A stretch of 64,000 nucleotides of DNA, taken from assembly GCA_947493035.1 (NCBI GenBank), contig CANLOW010000002.1, positions 372,001-436,000 on the forward strand, written 5' to 3'. Shown piece by piece: positions 6,274-60,560 of this stretch. Position numbers and translations under genes: made by a program. Origin of the DNA: an uncultured Aquimarina sp. Lineage in GTDB: Bacteria; Bacteroidota; Bacteroidia; Flavobacteriales; Flavobacteriaceae. The notes beneath the pieces were generated by a model. That model made no database searches. It was not told the origin of the DNA and saw nothing but the letters and a program-made list of their open reading frames with translations. Each line of letters starts with the position of its first letter. The stretch's first letter is position 1.

Positions 6274-6411
6274 GTTCTTTTTTAAATGTAACTATATCAT
6301 AAATCGCAAGTATTATTTCTTTATTCATAATGAGACTAAAATAAAACTAATCTTTTTAAGAATCTATTAAGAAATTACTTCTAAAATTAATTGCTAATTT
6401 GATTTTTAACA

Positions 6412-33412: not shown

Positions 33413-33822
33413 CCACTATGGACTGGAAGTACCATAGTTTCCTTCGTGACCGAAAGGTCATTCTAGTATAAAATTGGAGCCATCATCGTTTGGTTTACGG
33501 TGATGTTCCAAATATTCATTCACCATTTCATACGTTATATTCCCTGAACGCCAACACCCATAACCTATACTCCCAAAATGTCGACCCAATAACACTTGCT
33601 TAATTCAGGTAATTCTTGCTGTAATTTTCTTCAGCTTCTACCTTTCAACTTTTTAACCAGATCACTAATTGATATGGATGGTTGATATTCAACATCCATG
33701 TGAATATGATTTGAGGGTACTAGATCTTTTAGAATTTGGACATCTTCTGATTCACAAATGTGTATTAATAGAGTACTACAACAAATCTTGATATCTCTTT
33801 GAAGTACATGATATCTATATTT
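33413..33822 (-). mobile_element. decayed IS200/IS605-type element
   Basis: Read on the minus strand, this is a TnpA remnant (HUH transposase) lacking its N-terminus and broken by a stop and frameshifts. A small hairpin (GACC-GAAA-GGTC, 33448-33459) at the coding end resembles the subterminal hairpins used by such elements. The boundaries are approximate. Confidence 0.75.
33458..33816 (-). pseudogene. IS200-type transposase TnpA, truncated and frameshifted
   Basis: The pieces read YHVLQRDIKICCSTLLIHIC, then ESEDVQILKDLVPSNHIHMD with the HUH motif (H-I-H), SISISDLVKKLKGRS ending in a TGA, then in other frames RKLQQELPELS, WGRHFGSIGYGCW and GNITYEMVNEYLEHHRKPND. This is the classical order of IS200 TnpA, where the catalytic Tyr lies near the C-terminal helix. 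The N-terminal ~25 residues are lost at the junction with an RHS fragment. Confidence 0.8.
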
Positions 33823-34008
33823 TTAACTCCAAACAATATGAACTGTTAATCGATTACCTAATTCATCATAGGTGTATTCTACGATGTCACCGTCAGCATA
33901 TGTTATTTTGCTTATGCGGTTGAGATTGTCATATGAGGAAAGTAATAATAGGCTACAAATAACAGGGCAAGAACTTATAAGTGATAATTCATCTTCATAT
34001 GTTTTCAA
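33823..34008 (-). pseudogene. RHS/YD-repeat protein fragment
   Basis: About 60 codons including [20 protein letters not shown] followed by [10 protein letters not shown], which is a canonical YD (RHS) repeat. It is a piece of a large RHS or polymorphic-toxin-type protein; nothing of the full gene remains on either side. The ATG at 34008 is a chance start. Confidence 0.7.
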
Positions 34009-51931: not shown

Positions 51932-52246
51932 TTACTCCGGTGCCAATGTAACTTCTAAACCATCCAATTCTGGAGTGATTGGAATTTGACATCCTAAACG
52001 CGAATTATCTTCTACGTGAAAGGCTTCAGCTAACATTAAATCTTCATCTGTACCCATTTCTGGCAAGGTTGTTTCTGAAGTAACATAACACTGACAAGAA
52101 GCACACATAGCCATTCCTCCGCAAGTACCTTCGACAGGTAACTCGTAAGCTTTACAAACCTCCATTAGGTTCATTGCCATATCCGTTGGGGCTTGTACCT
52201 CATGTACTACTCCTTCTCTATCTGTAATTTTTATAGTAACGTCCAT
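51932..52246 (-). CDS. [2Fe-2S] ferredoxin, adrenodoxin type
   Basis: A 104-residue electron carrier. Cluster ligands are Cys42, Cys48 and Cys51 (CGGMAMCASC) and Cys86 (RLGCQI). The acidic surface around GTDEDLMLAEAFHVEDNSR is typical of adrenodoxin-like ferredoxins. As the last gene of the sulfate reduction operon, directly after a ferredoxin-NADP reductase, it probably feeds electrons to the sulfite reductase encoded upstream. Such ferredoxins also serve Fe-S assembly or P450s, but the context argues for sulfite. Confidence 0.92.
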   Translation of the reverse strand: MDVTIKITDREGVVHEVQAPTDMAMNLMEVCKAYELPVEGTCGGMAMCASCQCYVTSETTLPEMGTDEDLMLAEAFHVEDNSRLGCQIPITPELDGLEVTLAPE

Positions 52247-52270
52247 ATTTCGCTATCGCTCAATGGCTTT

Positions 52271-52328
52271 CAGCAATCAGGTATCAGCAATCAGCAAAAA
52301 CTGATACCTGATACCTGATACCTGATAG
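52271..52328. repeat. heptad-period repeat hairpin, ferredoxin/FNR gap
   Basis: Units ATCAGGT, ATCAGCA and then, after a CAAAAA loop, three exact copies of ACCTGAT. The two arms (52271-52294 and 52301-52328) are near reverse complements, giving a stem of about 17 bp with two mismatches. The period is 7 nt. Confidence 0.85.
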
Positions 52329-52335
52329 CCTAAAA

Positions 52336-53391
52336 TTAATCTATTGATTTCACTACTGCTTTTGGAGCTTCTTTTTTAGTTCCATCGAAACCTTCAACTC
52401 CACCTACTGTAGTATACTTCATCACGTACTTTTTATCTGGAAAAATACGTTGAAAAGCACTTTGACACATTAAAGTTGCTTCGTGGAAACCACACAAGAT
52501 TAACTTTAATTTCCCTGGATATGTATTTACATCACCGATCGCATAAATTCCAGGAATATTCGTTTGGTAATCCAACGCATTATTTACTTTGATCGCATTT
52601 TTCTCAATCTCTAATCCCCAGTTTGCGATAGGACCCAATTTTGGCGACAATCCAAATAATGGAATAAAGTGATCTGTTTTCAAAATATATGGATCTTCTC
52701 CTTTTGTAACAATCTCTACTCCCGTAACATGATCATCTCCTTCGATACCCTTAACTTCCGATGGAGTAATTAAGTTGATTTTACCAGCGTCTTTTAACTC
52801 TTGTACTTTCTCTACTGAATCTAAAGCACCTCTAAATTCGTTACGTCTATGTACTAAAGTCACAGATTTCGCAACATCAGTTAAAAAGATAGACCAGTCT
52901 AAAGCAGAATCTCCTCCTCCAGCAATTACCACATCTTTATCACGATACAATTCTGGCTCTCTAATCATATACTCTACTCCTTTATCCTCGAAATTCGCGA
53001 TATTTGGAATAGGTGGTTTTCTAGGTTCGAAAGATCCTAAACCTCCAGCAATAGCAACTACTGGTGCATGATGTTTCGTTCCTTTATTTGTGGTTACGAT
53101 AAAAGTTCCGTCTTCTTGCTTATCAATAGTTTCAGCACGCTCCCCCAACGTAAACCCTGGCTCAAATTGTTTAATTTGTTCCATTAGGTTATCCGTAAGA
53201 TCACCAGCTAAAATTTCTGGATATGCTGGAATATCATAAATAGGCTTCTTAGGATAAATTTCAGAACATTGCCCTCCTGGTTGTGGTAAAGCATCGATTA
53301 AATGACACTTCAATTTTAATAAACCTGCTTCAAAAACAGTGAATAATCCTGTCGGACCCGCTCCAATAATAAGAATATCCGTCTTTATCAT
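52336..53391 (-). CDS. ferredoxin-NADP reductase, thioredoxin-reductase-like type
   Basis: A 351-residue FAD enzyme. The FAD site is ILIIGAGPTGLFTVFEAGLL and the NADP site VVIAGGGDSALDWSIFL with the following VTLVHRRNEF. The CxxC redox pair of thioredoxin reductase is absent, and the C-terminal GDVNTYPGKLKLILCGFHEA region matches the YumC-type ferredoxin-NADP reductases. It should pass electrons from NADPH to the adjacent ferredoxin for sulfite reduction. It ends 90 bp before the ferredoxin gene. Confidence 0.92.
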   Translation of the reverse strand: MIKTDILIIGAGPTGLFTVFEAGLLKLKCHLIDALPQPGGQCSEIYPKKPIYDIPAYPEILAGDLTDNLMEQIKQFEPGFTLGERAETIDKQEDGTFIVTTNKGTKHHAPVVAIAGGLGSFEPRKPPIPNIANFEDKGVEYMIREPELYRDKDVVIAGGGDSALDWSIFLTDVAKSVTLVHRRNEFRGALDSVEKVQELKDAGKINLITPSEVKGIEGDDHVTGVEIVTKGEDPYILKTDHFIPLFGLSPKLGPIANWGLEIEKNAIKVNNALDYQTNIPGIYAIGDVNTYPGKLKLILCGFHEATLMCQSAFQRIFPDKKYVMKYTTVGGVEGFDGTKKEAPKAVVKSID

Positions 53392-53395
53392 TATG

Positions 53396-53974
53396 CTACT
53401 TTTTTTCTATTAATCCCTTGGTGAATTCATTGAGTGTTTCCACTTTTTCTTCAAAATCACCTTTTATTGTTTTTCTAAACTCGTTTAAGTTTTTTACTAA
53501 ATCATCGATATTTTCAGGAATTACTTCCTCAAAAAATTGACGTAATCTTTTGGCTGTTGTTGGTGATTTCCCATTGGTCGAAATCGCTACTTTTACATTT
53601 CCTTTGGTAACAATTCCTCCCATATAGAAATCACAATAAGGTGGGTTATCCGCTACATTAACAAGCTTAGCTTCTGCTCTACAATCTTTCCAAACTTGAA
53701 CATTCACTTCTGGAATATCTGTAGTAGCCACCACCATATGTCGACCTTCTAAATACTTTTTATCATAAACATCTGTAACCAGAGTTACACAATGCTTATT
53801 TGCCAATTCAATAGTTCCTTCTCGGAACATCGGCGAAACCATAGTCACCTTTGCATCGGGACTTGATTTTGTTAGAAAGTGTAATTTTTCTTCCGCTACA
53901 TTTCCTCCTCCTACAATCAATACATTAAGGTTCTTGACCTTTAGAAATATCGGATATAAATTGTTTCTTTCCAT
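53396..53974 (-). CDS. precorrin-2 dehydrogenase/sirohydrochlorin ferrochelatase
   Basis: A 192-residue protein equivalent to the N-terminal half of CysG or to Met8p. The NAD site is NVLIVGGGNVAEEKLHFL, followed by VNVADNPPYCDFYMGGIVTKGNVKVAISTNGKSP, the conserved catalytic Asp/Ser region. It oxidises precorrin-2 and inserts iron to give siroheme for sulfite reductase. It lies 4 bp upstream of the ferredoxin reductase in the same operon, and its partner methyltransferase is a separate gene (54070). Confidence 0.92.
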   Translation of the reverse strand: MERNNLYPIFLKVKNLNVLIVGGGNVAEEKLHFLTKSSPDAKVTMVSPMFREGTIELANKHCVTLVTDVYDKKYLEGRHMVVATTDIPEVNVQVWKDCRAEAKLVNVADNPPYCDFYMGGIVTKGNVKVAISTNGKSPTTAKRLRQFFEEVIPENIDDLVKNLNEFRKTIKGDFEEKVETLNEFTKGLIEKK

Positions 53975-53980
53975 TTATTA

Positions 53981-54066
53981 GCTATCAGCTGTCAGCTTTC
54001 GGCTATCAGCACATTATACTTTTCAAAAATACAATCGGCTGCTGAGATCCGAGACCTGATACCTAT
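53981..54066. repeat. heptad-period repeats, siroheme gene gap
   Basis: The left tract 53981-54010 is made of TATCAGC, TGTCAGC, TTTCGGC, TATCAGC. The right tract 54036-54066 (TGAGATC, CGAGACC, TGATACC) is its imperfect reverse complement. Both have a 7-nt period. Confidence 0.85.
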
Positions 54067-54069
54067 ATA

Positions 54070-54828
54070 TTATATTTCACTTAACTTTTGTTGCAATTCA
54101 GCTAACTGAATTTTATGCTTTACTACATGTCCCACAACAATAATCGCTGGAGCTCCTAATCCTTTTTCAGCAACAATGGCTTCTATCGTTTCAATGGTTC
54201 CTACACCTACATTTTCTTCAGCACGTGTTCCATTTTGAATAATCGCAATCGGTAAACTAGCTTTATCTTTTGCTTTAAATGCTTCTACTATTTTAGCTAG
54301 TTTATGCATTCCCATTAAAATAACCACAGTCGCATCACTCTTAGCAGCCACCAATATATCATTGGATAGCTTGTGCTCTTTCGTGGTTGCTGTAATCACC
54401 CAGAAACTTTCTGAATAGCCACGCTTCGTAACAGGAATATTTTGCATTGCTGGTACAGATACTGATGATGACAACCCTGGCACCATTGCAACTTCCATAC
54501 CATGCTTTGCCGCATAATCCATTTCCTCTGCTCCTCTTCCGAAAATAAAAGGATCACCTCCTTTTAATCGAATTACATGACCATGAGATTTACCATACTG
54601 AACAATTAAATCATTAATCTGCTCTTGTTGATAAGCATAACAACCTTTACGTTTACCTACATATAGCAATTCTGCATTCTTACAATAATCCAGTAACTCA
54701 GGATTCACTAAAGCATCATACAAAACTGCATCGGCACTTTCCATAGCTTTAATGGCTTTAAGGGTAATTAACTCTACATCACCTGGCCCTGCACCTACTA
54801 CTGTTAATTTTCCTTTTCCGTTACTCAC
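54070..54828 (-). CDS. cobA: uroporphyrinogen-III C-methyltransferase
   Basis: Makes precorrin-2 from uroporphyrinogen III and two SAM. A 252-residue SUMT: TVVGAGPGDVELITLKAIKA (SAM site), ADAVLYDALVNPELL, VIRLKGGDPFIFGRGAEEM, VPGLSSSVSVPAMQNIPVTKRG. It supplies precorrin-2 to the dehydrogenase/ferrochelatase of the next gene. Repeat-containing spacers of about 95 bp and 120 bp separate it from its neighbours. Confidence 0.95.
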   Translation of the reverse strand: MSNGKGKLTVVGAGPGDVELITLKAIKAMESADAVLYDALVNPELLDYCKNAELLYVGKRKGCYAYQQEQINDLIVQYGKSHGHVIRLKGGDPFIFGRGAEEMDYAAKHGMEVAMVPGLSSSVSVPAMQNIPVTKRGYSESFWVITATTKEHKLSNDILVAAKSDATVVILMGMHKLAKIVEAFKAKDKASLPIAIIQNGTRAEENVGVGTIETIEAIVAEKGLGAPAIIVVGHVVKHKIQLAELQQKLSEI

Positions 54829-54877
54829 TACTATTGATCTATTATTTTAAAGAACTTTTGATCTCTATTCGAAGGTT

Positions 54878-54945
54878 GAGCGAAGTCGAAACCTGATAGT
54901 ATTTACTCAGATTTTCAGACTTCGGCTCCGCTCAGTCTTCGTTTT
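54878..54945. repeat. long inverted repeat in the sir/cobA gap
   Basis: GAAGGTTGAGCGAAGTCGAA (arm 54878-54904) and the reverse complement of the arm 54919-54945 (GAAGACTGAGCGGAGCCGAA) agree over about 27 nt with six differences. They belong to a different repeat family from the 7-nt tracts. Partial copies are at 58473-58496 and inside purL. Confidence 0.8.
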
Positions 54946-54947
54946 AT

Positions 54948-57035
54948 TTACACACTAGCAGCTCTAAAAGCTCTAACACTAGCTAAGAATTTTTCAGCCA
55001 CAGCAATGTAATCTGTAGCAAATTCCTTAGTTGGTTCGTTTTGATTGATTGCAAATACTTGCTGTGAAAACGATCCTGCTTCGATAGCAATCTGACCATT
55101 ACCAACAAACTCGTTATCAAAATTCTTAACGATATCAGCTTGTGTATTTGTTTTCTTCTTTTCTGCTAATAAAATCGCTTTTGCAGAATTTATTTGAGAG
55201 GTATAAGCAAAGTAAATCGCATCACTCCACTTACCTTCTTCAAAAGCTGCCTTAGCATTCGCTATTTTCTCATCGCTTTCTAAAAACAAGGTCTCAATTA
55301 AATCGATTACCACACCAGCACATTCTCCTACACCAATCGCTTTAACATATTCTTCTTTATTACCCCAGTCTACAAAGAAATCTGCTGGTAACTCATCTGC
55401 TTCAGAAAGATCCGTTAAGAAATCATAGAAATAACGCTCTCCTTTTTCTATATAATATTCAACAAAAGGCAATCCGTTTGCATTCGCTTCGTAATCGTTA
55501 AAAATTCTACGAAGTGCTTCAGGACCACGTTTAGCTGGTATTTTAACTACCTTATCTGCAAAACGCGCATCTCCATTTCCTAAATTACCTCCACCCAATA
55601 ATACTTGAAGTGCAGGAGCTACTTTCTTATCTTTTGTACGGATAGTCATTCCTTGAAAACCAATGTTTGCCATATTGTGTTGACCACACGCATTCATACA
55701 TCCACTAATCTTAATGACAAGGTCTGTATTATTTACATAAGAAGGATATTCTTCTTTAATAACACGCTCTAATTCTTCAGCAATACCTGTACTACTTGCA
55801 ATACCTAAATTACAAGTATCTGTACCTGGACAAGCTGTAATATCAACTGCTTTATTATATCCAGCCTCTACAAAACCAAGTTTCTCTAATTCTGTATAGA
55901 CTACTGGAAGTAACTCTTCTTTTACAAAAGGAATTACAATATTCTGACGTAATGTTAAACGTACTTCTCCTGCAGCATATTTATCTACTAAATCGGCTAA
56001 TAAACGTGCTTCTTTAGTATAGAAATCTCCTAACAACACTTTGATCCCTACAGCTACGTAACCTTCTTGTTTCTGTGGAATTAAATTCGCTTTCTTCCAG
56101 TTTTCGTAAGCTGCTTGATCTTTAATAGCTACTTGTGGAATATCCTTAACTTCTGCAATTACAGGTTGTGGATATGCCTCTGCATCAATCGCTACTTTTT
56201 TATAAGGAACTGCAATACGTTGCTCTTCTACCAATGCTTTAAATCCGTCTAAACCAATTTTAGCCATTAAGAACTTCATACGTGCTTTAGCACGACTTTT
56301 ACGTTCTCCATGACGATCGAATACACGTAAAATAGCATTCATTAATGGAATGATTTCATCAGAAGGCAAGAATTCGTATAATGCTTCAGCAGCACGAGGT
56401 TGAGACCCTAATCCTCCAGCAACCATTATTTTAAATCCACGAACACCATTTTCTTCTTTAGCGATAAAACCGATATCATGCATGTAAGAAAGTCCCGTAT
56501 CTTCTTCTGTAGAAGAAAAAGAAACTTTGAATTTACGTCCCATTTCTTGACAAATTGGGTTACGTAAAAACTCTTCAAAAATAGCATGTGCATATGGTTG
56601 AATATCGAATGGTTCATTCACATCAAAACCAGCAGTTTCAGATGCAGTTACGTTACGCACTACATTACCACAAGCTTCACGAAGCGTTACATTATCTTTT
56701 TCTAATTCTGCCCACAACTCAGGAGTTCTATTTAAATCCACATAGTGAATTTGAATATCTTGACGTGTCGTAATATGTAGACGTCCACGAGAATATTCGT
56801 CAGAAACATCCGAAATACGACGTAACTGATTCGAAGCTACTTTACCATATGGTAACTTAATGCGAATCATTTGTACTCCTTCTTGACGTTGTCCATAAAC
56901 TCCACGTGCTAAACGTAGACTACGGAATTTTTCTTCATCAATTTTCCCATTGTGAAACATCTCGATTTTATTAGCTAATTCGACGATGTCCTTTTCTACA
57001 ATTGGATTTTCTATTTCTGATCTAAAACTTTGCAT
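54948..57035 (-). CDS. sir: ferredoxin-type sulfite (nitrite) reductase with C-terminal extension
   Basis: Six-electron reduction of sulfite to sulfide. Residues 1-550 contain the two symmetric NiR/SiR halves: RGVYGQRQEGVQMIRIKLPY, GRLHITTRQDIQIHYV, then ITACPGTDTCNLGIASSTG and KISGCMNACGQHNMANIGFQ, whose four Cys bind the 4Fe-4S cluster bridged to siroheme. Residues about 570-695 form an extra helical HEPN-like domain (GECAGVVIDLIETLFLESDE, AYFAYTSQINSAKAILL type) not present in plant or E. coli enzymes. Operon context supports sulfite rather than nitrite as the substrate. Confidence 0.93.
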   Translation of the reverse strand: MQSFRSEIENPIVEKDIVELANKIEMFHNGKIDEEKFRSLRLARGVYGQRQEGVQMIRIKLPYGKVASNQLRRISDVSDEYSRGRLHITTRQDIQIHYVDLNRTPELWAELEKDNVTLREACGNVVRNVTASETAGFDVNEPFDIQPYAHAIFEEFLRNPICQEMGRKFKVSFSSTEEDTGLSYMHDIGFIAKEENGVRGFKIMVAGGLGSQPRAAEALYEFLPSDEIIPLMNAILRVFDRHGERKSRAKARMKFLMAKIGLDGFKALVEEQRIAVPYKKVAIDAEAYPQPVIAEVKDIPQVAIKDQAAYENWKKANLIPQKQEGYVAVGIKVLLGDFYTKEARLLADLVDKYAAGEVRLTLRQNIVIPFVKEELLPVVYTELEKLGFVEAGYNKAVDITACPGTDTCNLGIASSTGIAEELERVIKEEYPSYVNNTDLVIKISGCMNACGQHNMANIGFQGMTIRTKDKKVAPALQVLLGGGNLGNGDARFADKVVKIPAKRGPEALRRIFNDYEANANGLPFVEYYIEKGERYFYDFLTDLSEADELPADFFVDWGNKEEYVKAIGVGECAGVVIDLIETLFLESDEKIANAKAAFEEGKWSDAIYFAYTSQINSAKAILLAEKKKTNTQADIVKNFDNEFVGNGQIAIEAGSFSQQVFAINQNEPTKEFATDYIAVAEKFLASVRAFRAASV

Positions 57036-57043
57036 ACCTATTT

Positions 57044-57180
57044 AGTATTAAGTAGTCAGTATTAAGTATTAAGACTTATGTACCACTACAATATTTTATT
57101 TCAATACCTCACTAAAAATGAGATTCTAATTTTAATTTAAACAAATCTTTATACTCAGTACTTAATACTTTGTACTGTAG
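57044..57180. repeat. heptad-period repeats, cysN/sir gap
   Basis: The left tract 57044-57075 has units AGTATTA, AGTAGTC, AGTATTA, AGTATTA. The right tract 57153-57180 has ACTCAGT, ACTTAAT, ACTTTGT, ACTGTAG. They are approximate reverse complements, about 80 nt apart, and can pair over some 18 bp with three mismatches. Confidence 0.85.
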
Positions 57181-57187
57181 CTTTTGG

Positions 57188-58432
57188 CTACTCAATAAAC
57201 CCTACTCCAGCAGTATGATTTGTTTGTGGATCGATTAAGATAAACGCACCATTTTGCTTATTGTCAGTATACTTGTCAAAAAACACTGGTTTTGCTAACT
57301 TAATTTCTACTTCTCCTATTTGATTTAAGCTTAAAGCATCTGCTTTTTCAGCTCCAGAAAAATCTGTTGCTTGTACATTATCTACAGATTGAATCATCGC
57401 TTGTACACGATTTACACCATGTTGTAATAAATATTTAGTACGTGGCACTAAATTATTGCTATCCATCCAACATACTTTAGCTTTCAATTGCTTTTCAGAA
57501 CTTGGCTCTTCTCCAGACTTTACTATCATGTCTCCACGAGAAACATTGATATTATCTTCTAAAGTCACATTGATAGAACTTCCTCTTCCTGCTTTATCGA
57601 ACTTCTTATCGAAGAAATAAATTTCTTTAATTTTTGATTTATTTAAAGATGGTAAAACCGTGATTTCATCACCCACAGCTAAATCTCCTCCATATAGTTT
57701 CCCTGCATATCCACGGAAATCATGAAATTCATCTTTCTTAGGACGAATTACCGTTTGAATTGGCAAACGTGCTTTCCCAGCTTCAAATACATCCTGTGCT
57801 TTCAAGTCTTCTAAATGCTGAAGAATAGATTGTCCATTGTACCAAGGTGTTTTTTCTGAACCGTCTACCACATTATCCCCTTTCAATGCACTGATAGGAA
57901 TAAACGTAATATTTTGACCTTTATAATCTGCCTTTTCTTTCAGTCTTTCGAACTCAGCCTTAATATTATTAAATTTCTCTTCCGAGTAATCTACTAAGTC
58001 CATTTTATTTACGGCAACGATCACATCTTTAATTCTCAATAAGTTATTGATAAAGAAGTGACGATACGTCTGCTCGATTACTCCATTACGAGCATCTACC
58101 AAAATGATTGATGCTTGAGAAGTCGAAGCTCCCGTAACCATGTTACGAGTATACTCTACGTGACCAGGAGTATCGGCAATAATGTAACTCTTCTTTCTTG
58201 TCGAGAAATAGATATGTGCTACATCAATGGTAATTCCTTGCTCGCGTTCTGCTACTAAACCGTCAGTTGCCAATGAAAAATCCAAATAATCGAATCCATT
58301 TGCTTTACTACGCTTTTCTATAGCTTCTAATTTATCTGTAGTCAGGGATTTTGTATCGTAAAGAATACGTCCGATTAACGTACTTTTTCCGTCATCTACA
58401 CTTCCTGCTGTTGCTATTTTTAATACTTCCAT
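57188..58432 (-). CDS. cysN: sulfate adenylyltransferase subunit 1
   Basis: GTPase subunit of ATP sulfurylase. G1 is ATAGSVDDGKSTLIGRIL, the switch region is EREQGITIDVAHIYF, G3 is DTPGHVEYTRNMVTGAS, and G4 is VNKMDLVD. The 414 residues end after the EF-Tu-like beta-barrel domains, so no APS kinase (CysC) domain is fused. It works with CysD, encoded immediately upstream, to form APS from sulfate and ATP. Confidence 0.96.
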   Translation of the reverse strand: MEVLKIATAGSVDDGKSTLIGRILYDTKSLTTDKLEAIEKRSKANGFDYLDFSLATDGLVAEREQGITIDVAHIYFSTRKKSYIIADTPGHVEYTRNMVTGASTSQASIILVDARNGVIEQTYRHFFINNLLRIKDVIVAVNKMDLVDYSEEKFNNIKAEFERLKEKADYKGQNITFIPISALKGDNVVDGSEKTPWYNGQSILQHLEDLKAQDVFEAGKARLPIQTVIRPKKDEFHDFRGYAGKLYGGDLAVGDEITVLPSLNKSKIKEIYFFDKKFDKAGRGSSINVTLEDNINVSRGDMIVKSGEEPSSEKQLKAKVCWMDSNNLVPRTKYLLQHGVNRVQAMIQSVDNVQATDFSGAEKADALSLNQIGEVEIKLAKPVFFDKYTDNKQNGAFILIDPQTNHTAGVGFIE

Positions 58433-58440
58433 CCTATTTT

Positions 58441-58571
58441 GGCTATCAGCTGTCAGCTATCGGCTATCAGCTATGAAGGTTTCGCTATGCTCAACCTAAT
58501 TTTATTGAATTAATATAGAGTATAGTTGTTTTCTAAATACTAACAACTATGAACTAATAACTATCGACTAA
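58441..58571. repeat. heptad-period repeats and hairpin, cysD/cysN gap
   Basis: The first tract 58441-58470 has TATCAGC, TGTCAGC, TATCGGC, TATCAGC. It is followed at 58473-58496 by AGGTTTCGCTATGCTCAACC, a relative of the 54878 repeat. The second tract 58537-58571 has ACAACTA, TGAACTA, ATAACTA, TCGACTA and runs into the cysD stop. ATAGTTGTT (58522-58530) and AACAACTAT (58542-58550) form a perfect 9-bp stem. Confidence 0.85.
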
Positions 58572-59470
58572 AAATACCCTTGTTGCTTACGTACTTCCAT
58601 TGCTGCTTCGGAACGTTTATCATCGATACGTGCTCCTCGTTCTGAAATCGTACTTTCTTTGATTTCTTCAACAACTTTACCAATGCTTACCGCATCAGAA
58701 AGTACTGCTGCTGTACATGACATATCTCCTACAGTACGGAAACGCACTAAACGTTCTTCTACAATTTCATCTTCTTCTCTGTAAACGATGTCGTCTTCTG
58801 CTGACCAAATCATTCCGTCACGTACAAATGTTTTACGCTTATGAGCAAAGTAAATTGAAGGAATTTCTATTTCTTCTTGCTCGATATAACTCCAAACATC
58901 TAATTCTGTCCAGTTACTGATTGGAAATACACGTACATTTTGTCCTAAATCAATCTTTCCATTTAACATATCAAACAACTCTGGACGTTGGTTTTTTTCA
59001 TCCCATTGACCAAAATCATCTCTTACTGAAAAAATACGCTCTTTAGCACGTGCTTTTTCTTCATCACGACGTGCTCCACCAATCGCTGCATCGAACTTAA
59101 ACTCATCTAATGCATTTAAAAGTGTAGTTGTCTGTAATGAATTACGACTTGCATACTTTCCTGACTCTTCTTTAACAAGACCTTTGTCAATATCATCTTG
59201 TACGTAACGTACAATCAACTCGACACCTAACTCTTCGGCTAAACGATCACGAAACTCAATAGTCTCTGGAAAGTTATGCCCTGTATCTACATGCAATAAA
59301 GGAAAAGGGATCTTAGCTGGCCAGAAAGCCTTTTGTGCTAAACGTACTAATGTAATCGAATCCTTACCTCCTGAAAATAATAATACAGGCTTTTCGAATT
59401 GAGAAGCTACTTCACGAAAAATGTGAATTGCTTCTGCTTCTAATGGATTTATGTTTAAAATATCACTCAT
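58568..59470 (-). CDS. cysD: sulfate adenylyltransferase subunit 2
   Basis: Adenylyl-transferring subunit of ATP sulfurylase (PP-loop family). The P-loop is PVLLFSGGKDSITLVRLAQK, then HVDTGHNFPETIEFRDRL, AAIGGARRDEEKARAKERIF, RVFPISNWTELDVWSYIEQE and GDMSCTAAVLSDA. The frame begins at 59491, but the ATG at 59470 (MSDILNINPLEAEAIHIFRE) matches the family start, giving 300 residues. It lies between cysH and cysN in the operon. Confidence 0.96.
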   Translation of the reverse strand: MSDILNINPLEAEAIHIFREVASQFEKPVLLFSGGKDSITLVRLAQKAFWPAKIPFPLLHVDTGHNFPETIEFRDRLAEELGVELIVRYVQDDIDKGLVKEESGKYASRNSLQTTTLLNALDEFKFDAAIGGARRDEEKARAKERIFSVRDDFGQWDEKNQRPELFDMLNGKIDLGQNVRVFPISNWTELDVWSYIEQEEIEIPSIYFAHKRKTFVRDGMIWSAEDDIVYREEDEIVEERLVRFRTVGDMSCTAAVLSDAVSIGKVVEEIKESTISERGARIDDKRSEAAMEVRKQQGYF

Positions 59471-59573
59471 TTTAATTCTATCTATCTTCAAGCTTCATTT
59501 TCGGTTTGCAAAGATAAGGCTTGGATGTTCTTGATTCAATTTTATTTCAGCTATACTAGTTATCTAGCTACTA

Positions 59574-60197
59574 CTATGTGTGTAACCCACACTCTCTATT
59601 TCCTAATACTTTCGTTGGATCGAAATATTTATGCTCATTTGGCAATCCTTTCTCTTCTAAATAGACATCTAAATCTTCATCAGAATAGCTATAAAAAGGG
59701 CTCACTTTCAACACACCATCTTTACCAAGACTCAAAATATCTAAAGAGTCTCGTAATGCCGTCTGTCCTTTTCTTAAGTTCGTAAACCAAACATCTGGTT
59801 TATGCTCTGCCATTGCACGACCAAAAGGCTCTAACTTCACTTGCTTCGTAAACTCAGCATGCTTAGGATCATCTATTCCAGGAACTCCTAAAACTACATC
59901 TCTGTGTGCTACTGTTTGCTGTGGCACGTATAACTTAACATTTAAGCTTAATTGAGCGATTACTGCTTCAGCATGACGATAAGTATTTGGTGTATTATAT
60001 CCAGAATCGCACCATATCACAGGCATATCAGCTTGCGCAGCTACACACACTTCTAAAATAGACGCTTCATAAGGCCTAAAATTGGTGGTTACTACTGGTT
60101 TTTTGGCAACACTTACTGCCCATTGCACAATCTCTAAAGGAGTCTTTCCTTTAAGCTCTTCATTGTACTTCGCTACTTGTTCTGCTGTAAAACTCAT
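59574..60197 (-). CDS. cysH: phosphoadenylyl-sulfate (or adenylyl-sulfate) reductase
   Basis: Reduces activated sulfate to sulfite with thioredoxin. The PP-loop-like start is PVVTTNFRPYEASILEVC, with WCDSGYNTPNTYRHAEAVIA and WFTNLRKGQTALR further on. The catalytic Cys is in NRECGLH at the very C-terminus. The two Cys pairs that hold the 4Fe-4S cluster in APS reductases are missing (the position reads VKLEPFGRAM). The frame extends to 60251, but that part is repeat sequence; MSFTAEQVAKYNEEL at 60197 is the natural start. No APS kinase is in this operon. Confidence 0.9.
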   Translation of the reverse strand: MSFTAEQVAKYNEELKGKTPLEIVQWAVSVAKKPVVTTNFRPYEASILEVCVAAQADMPVIWCDSGYNTPNTYRHAEAVIAQLSLNVKLYVPQQTVAHRDVVLGVPGIDDPKHAEFTKQVKLEPFGRAMAEHKPDVWFTNLRKGQTALRDSLDILSLGKDGVLKVSPFYSYSDEDLDVYLEEKGLPNEHKYFDPTKVLGNRECGLHT

Positions 60198-60203
60198 TTT
60201 TTT

Positions 60204-60237
60204 AGCTATCAGCTGCCAGCTATTGGCTATCAGCTTG
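60204..60237. repeat. heptad-period repeat, DUF2061/cysH gap
   Basis: TATCAGC, TGCCAGC, TATTGGC, TATCAGC at 60207-60234, nearly the same tract as at 53981 and 58441. A separate perfect 8-bp hairpin (AAGTTCAA / TTGAACTT) lies at 60280-60297 in the same gap. Confidence 0.85.
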
Positions 60238-60302
60238 GTTAATGGCATCACTCAGTTCTGCCGTTATATTCTCAAATTCAAGTTCAATCTTGAACTTTTA
60301 AT

Positions 60303-60560
60303 TTACCTACCCCATTTGATTTTATTCCACACTCTTTCGTGGAAAAAATACAATATCATCTTATTAATAAAATCTATCAGTGTTATCCACCCTGCATCTC
60401 CTAAACTTTCTTTCCCTAGCACTAAATAAGACACTACAAAAGTATCAATCGTACCTACTAAACGCCAACTAAGCGCCTTCACAACACTTCGAATCGGTTT
60501 TTCCGACTGAACATCTTGCTCATATGTGGTATTCGCTCCTGCTACTTTCTCTGTTATCAT
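60303..60560 (-). CDS. DUF2061 family membrane protein
   Basis: An 85-residue integral membrane protein with the DUF2061 signature RSVVKALSWRLVGTIDTFVV, the second helix GWITLIDFINKMILYFFHER and a final WNKIKWG. Genes of this family frequently head sulfate assimilation operons in Bacteroidota and Proteobacteria, and it is the first gene here. A role in sulfate uptake or the envelope is suspected from context but not shown. Confidence 0.9.
   Translation of the reverse strand: MITEKVAGANTTYEQDVQSEKPIRSVVKALSWRLVGTIDTFVVSYLVLGKESLGDAGWITLIDFINKMILYFFHERVWNKIKWGR

Follow-up and report, generated by a model that had tools for sequence, protein, structure and literature searches.

The gaps between genes of a sulfate-assimilation operon in an uncultured Aquimarina sp. 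(contig CANLOW010000002.1) contain short, degenerate tandem arrays of heptanucleotides (heptads). The operon lies in the stretch of 64,000 nucleotides analyzed here (contig positions 372,001 to 436,000), which we call the window. Different as their units are, these arrays and others in the same genome have a common denominator: as one reads out of the flanking gene into the gap, AG returns every 7 nt; that is, a sense-AG arm is found past a stop codon and a sense-CT arm ahead of a start codon. This AG phase and its orientation to gene edges are new here and were absent from an earlier interpretation made from the letters of the window (the sequence-only reading). In the open-access literature, no paper stating the rule was found by title or abstract start, which is weak evidence.

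We favour, with a probability of roughly 0.45, the explanation that the arrays are slippage-born, degenerate relatives of the short tandemly repeated repetitive (STRR) sequences, which are kept at gene borders and often form stems spanning the gap. Such arrays would arise and change their length through replication slippage, may be renewed when units are copied or replaced inside gaps, and would persist with the coding sequence left untouched. A stem across the intercistronic gap might separate translation units or protect mRNA ends. Bacterial repeats of this length have been on record for decades, and there is no consensus on what causes them. A single measurable rule (period 7 with AG in phase, directed out of the gene) that holds across units, in several phyla and for units without G-runs leads to one testable question, whether the arrays reflect mutational polarity, a binding factor or selection at mRNA borders, and an outward orientation irrespective of the letters narrows the possible roles of these repeats.

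Period-7 arrays in the sulfate-assimilation operon

The operon (window 51932-60560, minus strand) comprises by Pfam a DUF2061 gene, two PAPS_reduct genes (cysH, cysD), a GTP_EFTU gene (cysN), a NIR_SIR sulfite reductase gene (sir), a tetrapyrrole methylase gene (cobA), a sirohaem-synthesis gene (cysG), a pyridine-nucleotide reductase gene (fnr) and a Fer2 ferredoxin gene (fdx). The short names cysH, cysD, cysN, sir, cobA, cysG, fnr and fdx are our own labels on Pfam matches. The following arms were recognized:

52270..52297, minus strand: sense-CT arm in the fdx/fnr gap, inverted partner of 52301-52327 (Tandem Repeats Finder, fold)
52301..52327, minus strand: sense-AG arm in the fdx/fnr gap past the reductase stop codon, mRNA unit TATCAGG (Tandem Repeats Finder, shift-7 self-alignment, fold z -7.55)
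53976..54010, minus strand: sense-CT heptad arm immediately upstream of the sirohaem-synthesis gene, mRNA unit GCTGATA (Tandem Repeats Finder, self-alignment, shuffles)
54037..54063, minus strand: degenerate partner arm in the gap of 53976-54010, mRNA GGTATCAGGTCTCGGATCTCAGCAGCC (read from the sequence and fold)
57039..57073, minus strand: sense-CT heptad arm upstream of the sulfite reductase gene, plus-strand unit AGTATTA (Tandem Repeats Finder, self-alignment, shuffles)
57150..57177, minus strand: sense-AG partner arm past the cysN stop codon (read from the sequence and fold)
58442..58474, minus strand: sense-CT heptad arm upstream of cysN (Tandem Repeats Finder, self-alignment, shuffles)
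58539..58571, minus strand: sense-AG heptad arm past cysD (sequence, Tandem Repeats Finder)
60202..60235, minus strand: weaker sense-CT heptad arm upstream of cysH, periods 14 and 21 (self-alignment, shuffles)

Local self-alignment at a shift of 7 nt gave four segments with a score of at least 11 in the 64 kb, all of them within the operon (52270-52327, 53976-54010, 57039-57073, 58442-58474). At a score of at least 9, seven segments were obtained in the window; thus, weaker period-7 stretches exist. Tandem Repeats Finder recovered the four operon tracts and 58539-58571, besides three short period-7 items outside the operon (7459, 12403, 34002). The signal of the cysH-side tract (60202-60235) resided mainly at periods 14 and 21. 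Seven operon gaps were compared with 2000 dinucleotide shuffles each, the spacer of 4 nt that separates the sirohaem and reductase genes being left out. Four gaps lay beyond all 2000 shuffles, the cysH/DUF2061 gap was marginal (P=0.04), and no heptads were disclosed in the cobA/sir (P=0.85) and cysD/cysH (P=0.17) gaps. A score of at least 9 was reached by four of the seven gaps, compared to a mean of 0.013 and a maximum of 2 in the shuffles. The sequence-only reading had proposed an exact period of 7 in five gaps. In four of them the tracts are genuine and far above the shuffled gaps, as are the constancy of the period while the unit varies between gaps and the recurrence of near-identical tracts in several gaps; the cysH-side tract was marginal.

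Distribution of the arrays in the genome and the genus

That the tracts are a feature of this one operon, as had been supposed, did not hold. Further tracts were found at other places of the genome and in other genera, and the closest congener carries them in the same gaps; an operon-specific element was therefore rejected. A search with GCTATCAGCTATCAGC (at most 2 mismatches) gave 32 overlapping matches at 16 separate places of the genome, four of them in the operon; the reversed control gave 2. Copies of like units were found in other gaps, and many units occur in the genome, among them TATCAGG, AGTACTG, TAGAGAA, AGTTGTC and AAGCCTA. Intergenic tracts (period 7, score at least 10) were about 13-fold denser than coding ones, with 7 segments in 75.8 kb and 4 in 564 kb, respectively, which is an underestimate as the 32 tiles (640 kb) were positioned off the listed hits. 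Other periods from 5 to 15 yielded 0-3 intergenic segments in the same tiles. Coding periodicity was rejected as a source, because coding DNA shows periods that are multiples of 3 and the heptads are denser between genes.

The tracts cluster. Adjacent gaps both carrying tracts were counted 9 times in the genome under study (G000; G- and L-numbers are our labels for genomes and loci) against a shuffled mean of 1.64, and 10 times against 2.26 in the closest of the 36 congeners compared (G035, sulfite reductase 99% identical), figures that are raised since some tiles were chosen for having hits. Besides the cys cluster (window 51932-60560), clusters were seen in argG-argC-argD-proA (L079, 8.0-13.5 kb; the best matches for argG and argD fall below their cut-offs), trpG-D-C-B-A (L080, 8.0-13.5 kb) and hisG-D-C-B-H-A (L118, 12.4-19.8 kb). 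A further cluster (L064) sits among other genes, and the gaps beside two leuB genes are without a tract; amino-acid operons as a rule are thus unsupported.

The unit GCTATCAGCTATCAGC is distributed very unevenly over the genus; among 37 genomes, there were 62 matches in G035, 32 in G000, 20 in G021, 16 in G036 and 0-5 in the rest. STRR families typically have one fixed unit each. The arrays described here agree with STRR in their tandem units of 7 bp (Tandem Repeats Finder, self-alignment, shuffles) and in their dispersal between genes; the comparison with heptanucleotide STRRs made by the sequence-only reading was the right one. Units vary within tracts and between gaps, and we therefore filed the arrays as an STRR variant and not as a plain member.

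AG phase and orientation at gene edges of the genus

The phase was determined in 88 tracts of G000 located in gaps of less than 400 nt, one of which is a run of N (L154). AGT was phase-locked into the gap in 23 tracts and out of it in one, CAG in 13 and two, respectively. In a separate count, G exceeded C into the gap in 63/84 tracts. In G000, AG-AG distances were counted at 830 gene edges without any tract threshold and amounted to 268, 234 and 175 at 7, 14 and 21 nt compared to about 105 elsewhere. After removal of the detected tracts, the values were still 157, 151 and 117 compared to about 96. Among the 16 dinucleotides, AG was the most enriched at the stop edges of G000 and G035 and at the start edges of G007; at the remaining edges, GC or GT came first and AG second or third. 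The 152 edges of E. coli K-12 gave no AG peak (22, 19 and 14 at 7, 14 and 21 nt; other distances 13-27).

Some counts from the genus speak against a strict rule. AG followed by G or T was locked in a single direction in only 27 of the 88 tracts (26 in, 1 out) and in neither direction in 61. TAG alone was locked in 12 cases each way, and HAG in 33 cases into the gap, in 10 out of it, in 15 both ways and in 30 in neither. Plain AG versus CT was mixed at start edges (14 versus 8 in G000, 5 versus 11 in G035), because the unit GCTATCA contains AGCT. Without its detected tracts G035 showed a weak AG peak (80, 74 and 52 versus about 54), CT also peaked at 7 nt in this genome (133 versus about 45), and eight tiles of G036 did not reveal any period-7 tract.

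Orientation of two unit families in other genera and phyla

The rule was then examined with two units elsewhere, ORFs (open reading frames) being called by a simple longest-ORF method. Of 149 genomes of the family, 32 contain arrays of AGTAYTN, compared to 8 for the reversed control. In 27 of the 30 loci from the search and 38 of the 40 stretches fetched, 65 places were located, and 62 of these have two flanking ORFs. AG pointed into the gap at 58/62 places, which are not independent as 25 of the 62 come from two genomes (G116, G132), and at 56/60 outside the genome under study. Start edges followed the rule in 28/31 cases, stop edges in 30/31 and convergent gaps in 15/15. Arrays of CAGTTRT were found across phyla (cyanobacteria, planctomycetes, acidobacteria, deltaproteobacteria, Bacteroidetes and others; at least 113 stretches). 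Core matches at 80 listed loci pointed into the gap at 58/64 intergenic places, with 31/31 at start edges and 14/16 in convergent gaps, and the other 33 loci, held out, gave 31/33; here, too, places are not independent, many loci being from Okeania or Microcystis. Small further sets gave 8/10 (CAGTTRT) and 2/3 (last AGTAYTN loci). Places without two flanking ORFs (15 for CAGTTRT at the 80 loci, 5 in the hold-out, 1 for AGTAYTN), places inside ORFs (7, 2 and 2, respectively) and identical-context repeats were left out.

With the queried arrays removed, the AG peak persisted at the remaining gene edges. AG-AG distances of 7, 14 and 21 nt were counted 136, 115 and 81 times in other flavobacterial genera (versus about 35); 146, 110 and 93 times at 47 cyanobacterial loci, where the mean was 69 and a count of 110 occurred at one further distance; and 67, 43 and 36 times at 33 other loci (versus 29). 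Smaller CT peaks at 7 nt were seen in the same sets (49 versus about 21, 75 versus 55, and 43 versus 24, respectively). These loci were fetched for holding heptads and do not represent whole phyla. The CAGTTRT data become less favourable when extended tract ends are counted (56/65); the pattern was found in 5/149 genomes with 4 for the reversed control, and all nine places in ORFs were AG-sense, the strand without stops. Some of the latter may be start-edge exceptions hidden by the longest-ORF caller.

A rather improbable alternative is that the arrays are in themselves neutral and owe their orientation to selection on the sequence around start and stop codons, the opposite orientation being purged. 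CT-sense arrays ahead of a start codon are G-poor, and the inspected units lack ATG, GTG and TTG and are often stop-rich. The strict CAGTTRT start edges suit this explanation, and a related argument from coding potential is made in MacGregor 2015 (PMC4679880). Convergent gaps, which have no start codon, obey the rule as well. Moreover, stops are confined to the CT strand in AGTAYTC and to the AG strand in AGTAYTG, and both units follow the rule (10/10 and 9/11). Since these two units behave alike, stop-codon content or a bias of ORF calling was rejected as the sole cause.

The arrays lie close to the genes. Start-side tracts ended 6-13 nt ahead of the start codon in 18/31 cases, and stop-side tracts began at most 7 nt from the stop codon in 18/29. 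Stop codons within 25 nt of an AGTAYTN array were TAG in 12/22 cases versus 87/307 ORFs of the same loci (L308-L375), and eight of these twelve kept the phase of the array. An instance in the window is the TAG that ends cysD, which is in register with the first unit of 58539-58571. This proximity would suit a border signal, in which AG (often YAG) at a spacing of 7 nt is recognized by a factor that binds DNA or RNA; RNA leaving the gene, sense past the stop and antisense past the start, would carry AG heptads and be terminated, trimmed or bound. A single rule would then cover start and stop edges in co-directional, divergent and convergent gaps, and differing units have only the AG phase in common. 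We consider this improbable, as there is no known binding factor (and no search for one was made), tracts inside an operon would hamper expression of the next gene, and most gaps are without a tract. Targets of TRAP comprise NAG triplets spaced 2-3 nt together with the TRAP protein; the AG spacing of 7 nt does not fit a target of this type, the TRAP protein not having been searched for. In its widest form, to which we would give similarly long odds, outward AG every 7 nt might be a cross-phylum gene-border code acting on transcripts that leave the gene either way. TAACTGA, CAGTTRT, AGTAYTN, GCTATCA and perhaps the G-rich heptads would be interchangeable spellings, whose units could turn over fast since only AG phase, spacing and orientation are read. 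If so, seemingly unrelated heptad repeats would be spellings of one oriented signal.

Folding and pairing of the arms

The sequence-only reading had seen an inverted partner or a stem in four of five gaps, which made each spacer able to fold. The ability to fold was affirmed, with RNA fold z values of -7.55 (fdx/fnr), -2.51 (sir/cysN) and -2.89, -1.76 and -3.34 in the other three gaps. The partners are clear in fdx/fnr and sir/cysN and partial in cysG/cobA; the arms of cysN/cysD consist of different units, and the cysH gap has a single heptad arm. Heptad gaps surpassed their shuffles in folding, the mean z being -3.41 in 18 heptad gaps versus -2.02 in 50 other gaps of G000, and -3.74 versus -1.53 in the same numbers of gaps of G035. 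The two arms of a gap also formed better pairs than arms exchanged among gaps (P=0.0002 in G000, P=0.02 in G035).

The stems, which are part of our favoured explanation, are opposed by several results. Ordinary co-directional gaps of G000 also beat swapped ends (P=0.0004, n=40; G035 P=0.26), and stems are therefore not specific to heptads; gap-spanning stems may be common in this genome generally. In several heptad gaps the arms do not match, or the fold does not surpass that of the shuffles (e.g., L080 11637, L085 18559, L064 12517). Arm swapping in other genera gave a negative result (P=0.35) and was uninformative, its 19 gaps sharing one unit, and no compensatory changes were shown. Furthermore, a stem accounts for pairing but leaves unaccounted the AG strand pointing out of the gene in convergent gaps (15/15 AGTAYTN, 14/16 CAGTTRT).

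Mutational polarity alone, i.e., replication or repair that makes heptads and favours AG-phased units reading out of constrained DNA without any function, is very improbable in our view. It would fit the cross-phylum occurrence with different units and the host genes without a common role. On the other hand, no known mutational process senses gene edges irrespective of gene direction, and pairing within gaps exceeds that of swapped arms in two genomes.

Turnover of units between relatives

G035 has tracts in the same operon gaps. Three window gaps are 0.96-0.99 identical, and the sir/cysN gap (identity 0.56) is replaced in G035 by a different heptad hairpin. Elsewhere in the two genomes, AGTAC-type arms stand opposite TAGTCAC-type or GCTGATA-type arms and an ACCTGAT array opposite an AGCCCGA array; the sites of unit replacement are L079_9879, L080_8765, L079_10954, L122_15629 and window position 57036. 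At L064_15386, one array differs in length by 21 nt (three units) between close species. Thus, a whole gap may switch its heptad unit between close species, with period, orientation and place being kept, an observation that is new here, and such replacements in the same gap are natural experiments. A count that tells against a special turnover of the arrays comes from 78 paired gaps of at least 20 nt, the identity being 0.75 with heptads (n=20) and 0.69 without (n=58). Heptad gaps are no more divergent than others, and fast turnover is therefore general to gaps here.

In G007, G005 and G036 (sulfite reductase 84-85% identical), several of these gaps likewise carry heptads, though of other units. 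Relatives with a reductase about 84% or 99% identical therefore share tract positions with G000, while most of the 14-15 more distant congeners have few tracts. The conditions under which the sequence-only reading was to be refuted did not apply, given these shared positions, the excess of the period-7 signal over shuffles and its higher density between genes than in coding DNA.

Short gaps filled by miniature mobile elements whose terminal inverted repeats are heptad-periodic would explain inverted arms at both ends of a gap, dispersed copies of like units, and the fact that several gaps are far longer than in distant congeners (e.g., cobA-cysG with 95 nt versus about 20 nt in several). Units and loops vary from copy to copy, though, with no common core discernible by eye in the printed gaps, the arms of one gap can differ in unit, and no target duplication was seen, without a formal test. 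Y1 transposases (PF01797) are present in 32/37 congeners, including many with few tracts, and do not follow the number of tracts. We regard such elements as distinctly improbable. The overall interpretation of the sequence-only reading is partly supported, and of the RNA role and the spreading repeat that it had suggested, neither is established.

Relation to known heptanucleotide repeats

The heptanucleotide repeats are of a known kind (cyanobacteria, Beggiatoaceae, Xanthomonas) and are here degenerate and often paired. Heptads as slippage products are a proposal of others, as cited in MacGregor 2015 (PMC4679880) and Rehm 2015 (PMC4692102), and it is this origin that our favoured explanation adopts. 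The cyanobacterial STRR, mostly of 7 bp, are alike in period, intergenic site and ability to fold; a role in transcript stability or translational coupling has been suggested, their function being unknown (PMC2670836). In contrast to them, the unit varies here within and between gaps, the orientation to gene edges was measured, and the phylum is a different one. TAACTGA repeats have been described in Beggiatoaceae, cyanobacteria and five Bacteroidetes, lying close upstream of start codons in a single orientation (PMC4679880). In Flexibacter litoralis one set past a stop codon is reversed, which fits the AG rule, the reverse complement being TCAGTTA. These repeats differ by one exact unit and an array that itself has no stem, and a general AG phase is not proposed in the available text (PMC4679880).

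GGGAATC and GGGGA(C/T)T heptads of Xanthomonas and Nostoc have their G-rich strand as the non-coding strand upstream of ORFs and as the coding strand downstream, mostly within 50 bp (Rehm 2015, PMC4692102). This orientation is the same as here, and unit lengths vary between close species. They are discussed as G-quadruplexes (PMC4692102), whereas AGTAYTN and CAGTTRT have isolated Gs; units of this kind should not form G-quadruplexes. Runs of at least three G per unit are lacking in most cases, where the units have isolated G or at most GG, and the G-bearing strand does lead out of the nearest ORF. The P6b stem of the Nostoc trnL intron carries degenerate heptads on both hairpin arms (PMC4476775, PMC3488679), and one repeat class replaced the other several times in evolution (PMC4476775). 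It differs in lying inside an intron, away from gene borders, and in having only two classes (PMC4476775, PMC3488679). Geobacter metallireducens has four or five tandem heptads of GGGACCG and MTYCTGA, proposed to be regulatory elements, of which MTYCTGA is a CT-type unit; these differ in that their units are fixed and some lie within genes (PMC2700814). Because of the same orientation in the G-rich heptads and TAACTGA and the class switches in the Nostoc intron, we filed the arrays among the known heptad repeats as a variant.

Further features of the window and the loci

Between 51700 and 61400, Rfam gave no match at the gathering score and two sub-threshold matches only, and scans for promoters (sigma-70 type only) and terminators were at chance level. 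Palindromes which we labelled REP-like (resembling repetitive extragenic palindromes; e.g., GGTTGAGCGAAGTCGAAACC) are located in the window at 54870-54941, 52249-52264 and 58475-58497 and share the gaps of the operon:

54870..54941, no strand: two REP-like palindromes in the cobA/sir gap, read from the sequence; gap without heptads in the shuffle test
58475..58497, no strand: REP-like palindrome in the cysN/cysD gap, read from the sequence, a stem in the fold

Gaps of G035 in L081 and L085 also carry such palindromes (e.g., GTCATCCTGAATTTATTTCAGGATCTC), and the cobA/sir pair of G000 is exchanged for a different kind in G035. A broken match to a Y1 transposase (PF01797) resides on the minus strand at 33586-33852 (contig 405586-405852) with one TGA and one TAA inside. 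Residues 581-687 of the sulfite reductase (54948-57035) gave a C-terminal sub-threshold match to HEPN (20.3 versus 22 bits). Longer arrays were encountered at other loci: the L314 gap holds a higher-order repeat of about 20 nt built of CAG-heptads, L321 a 219-bp AGTATTG stretch (1501-1719), and L084 about ten GCTTCGG units at 6329.

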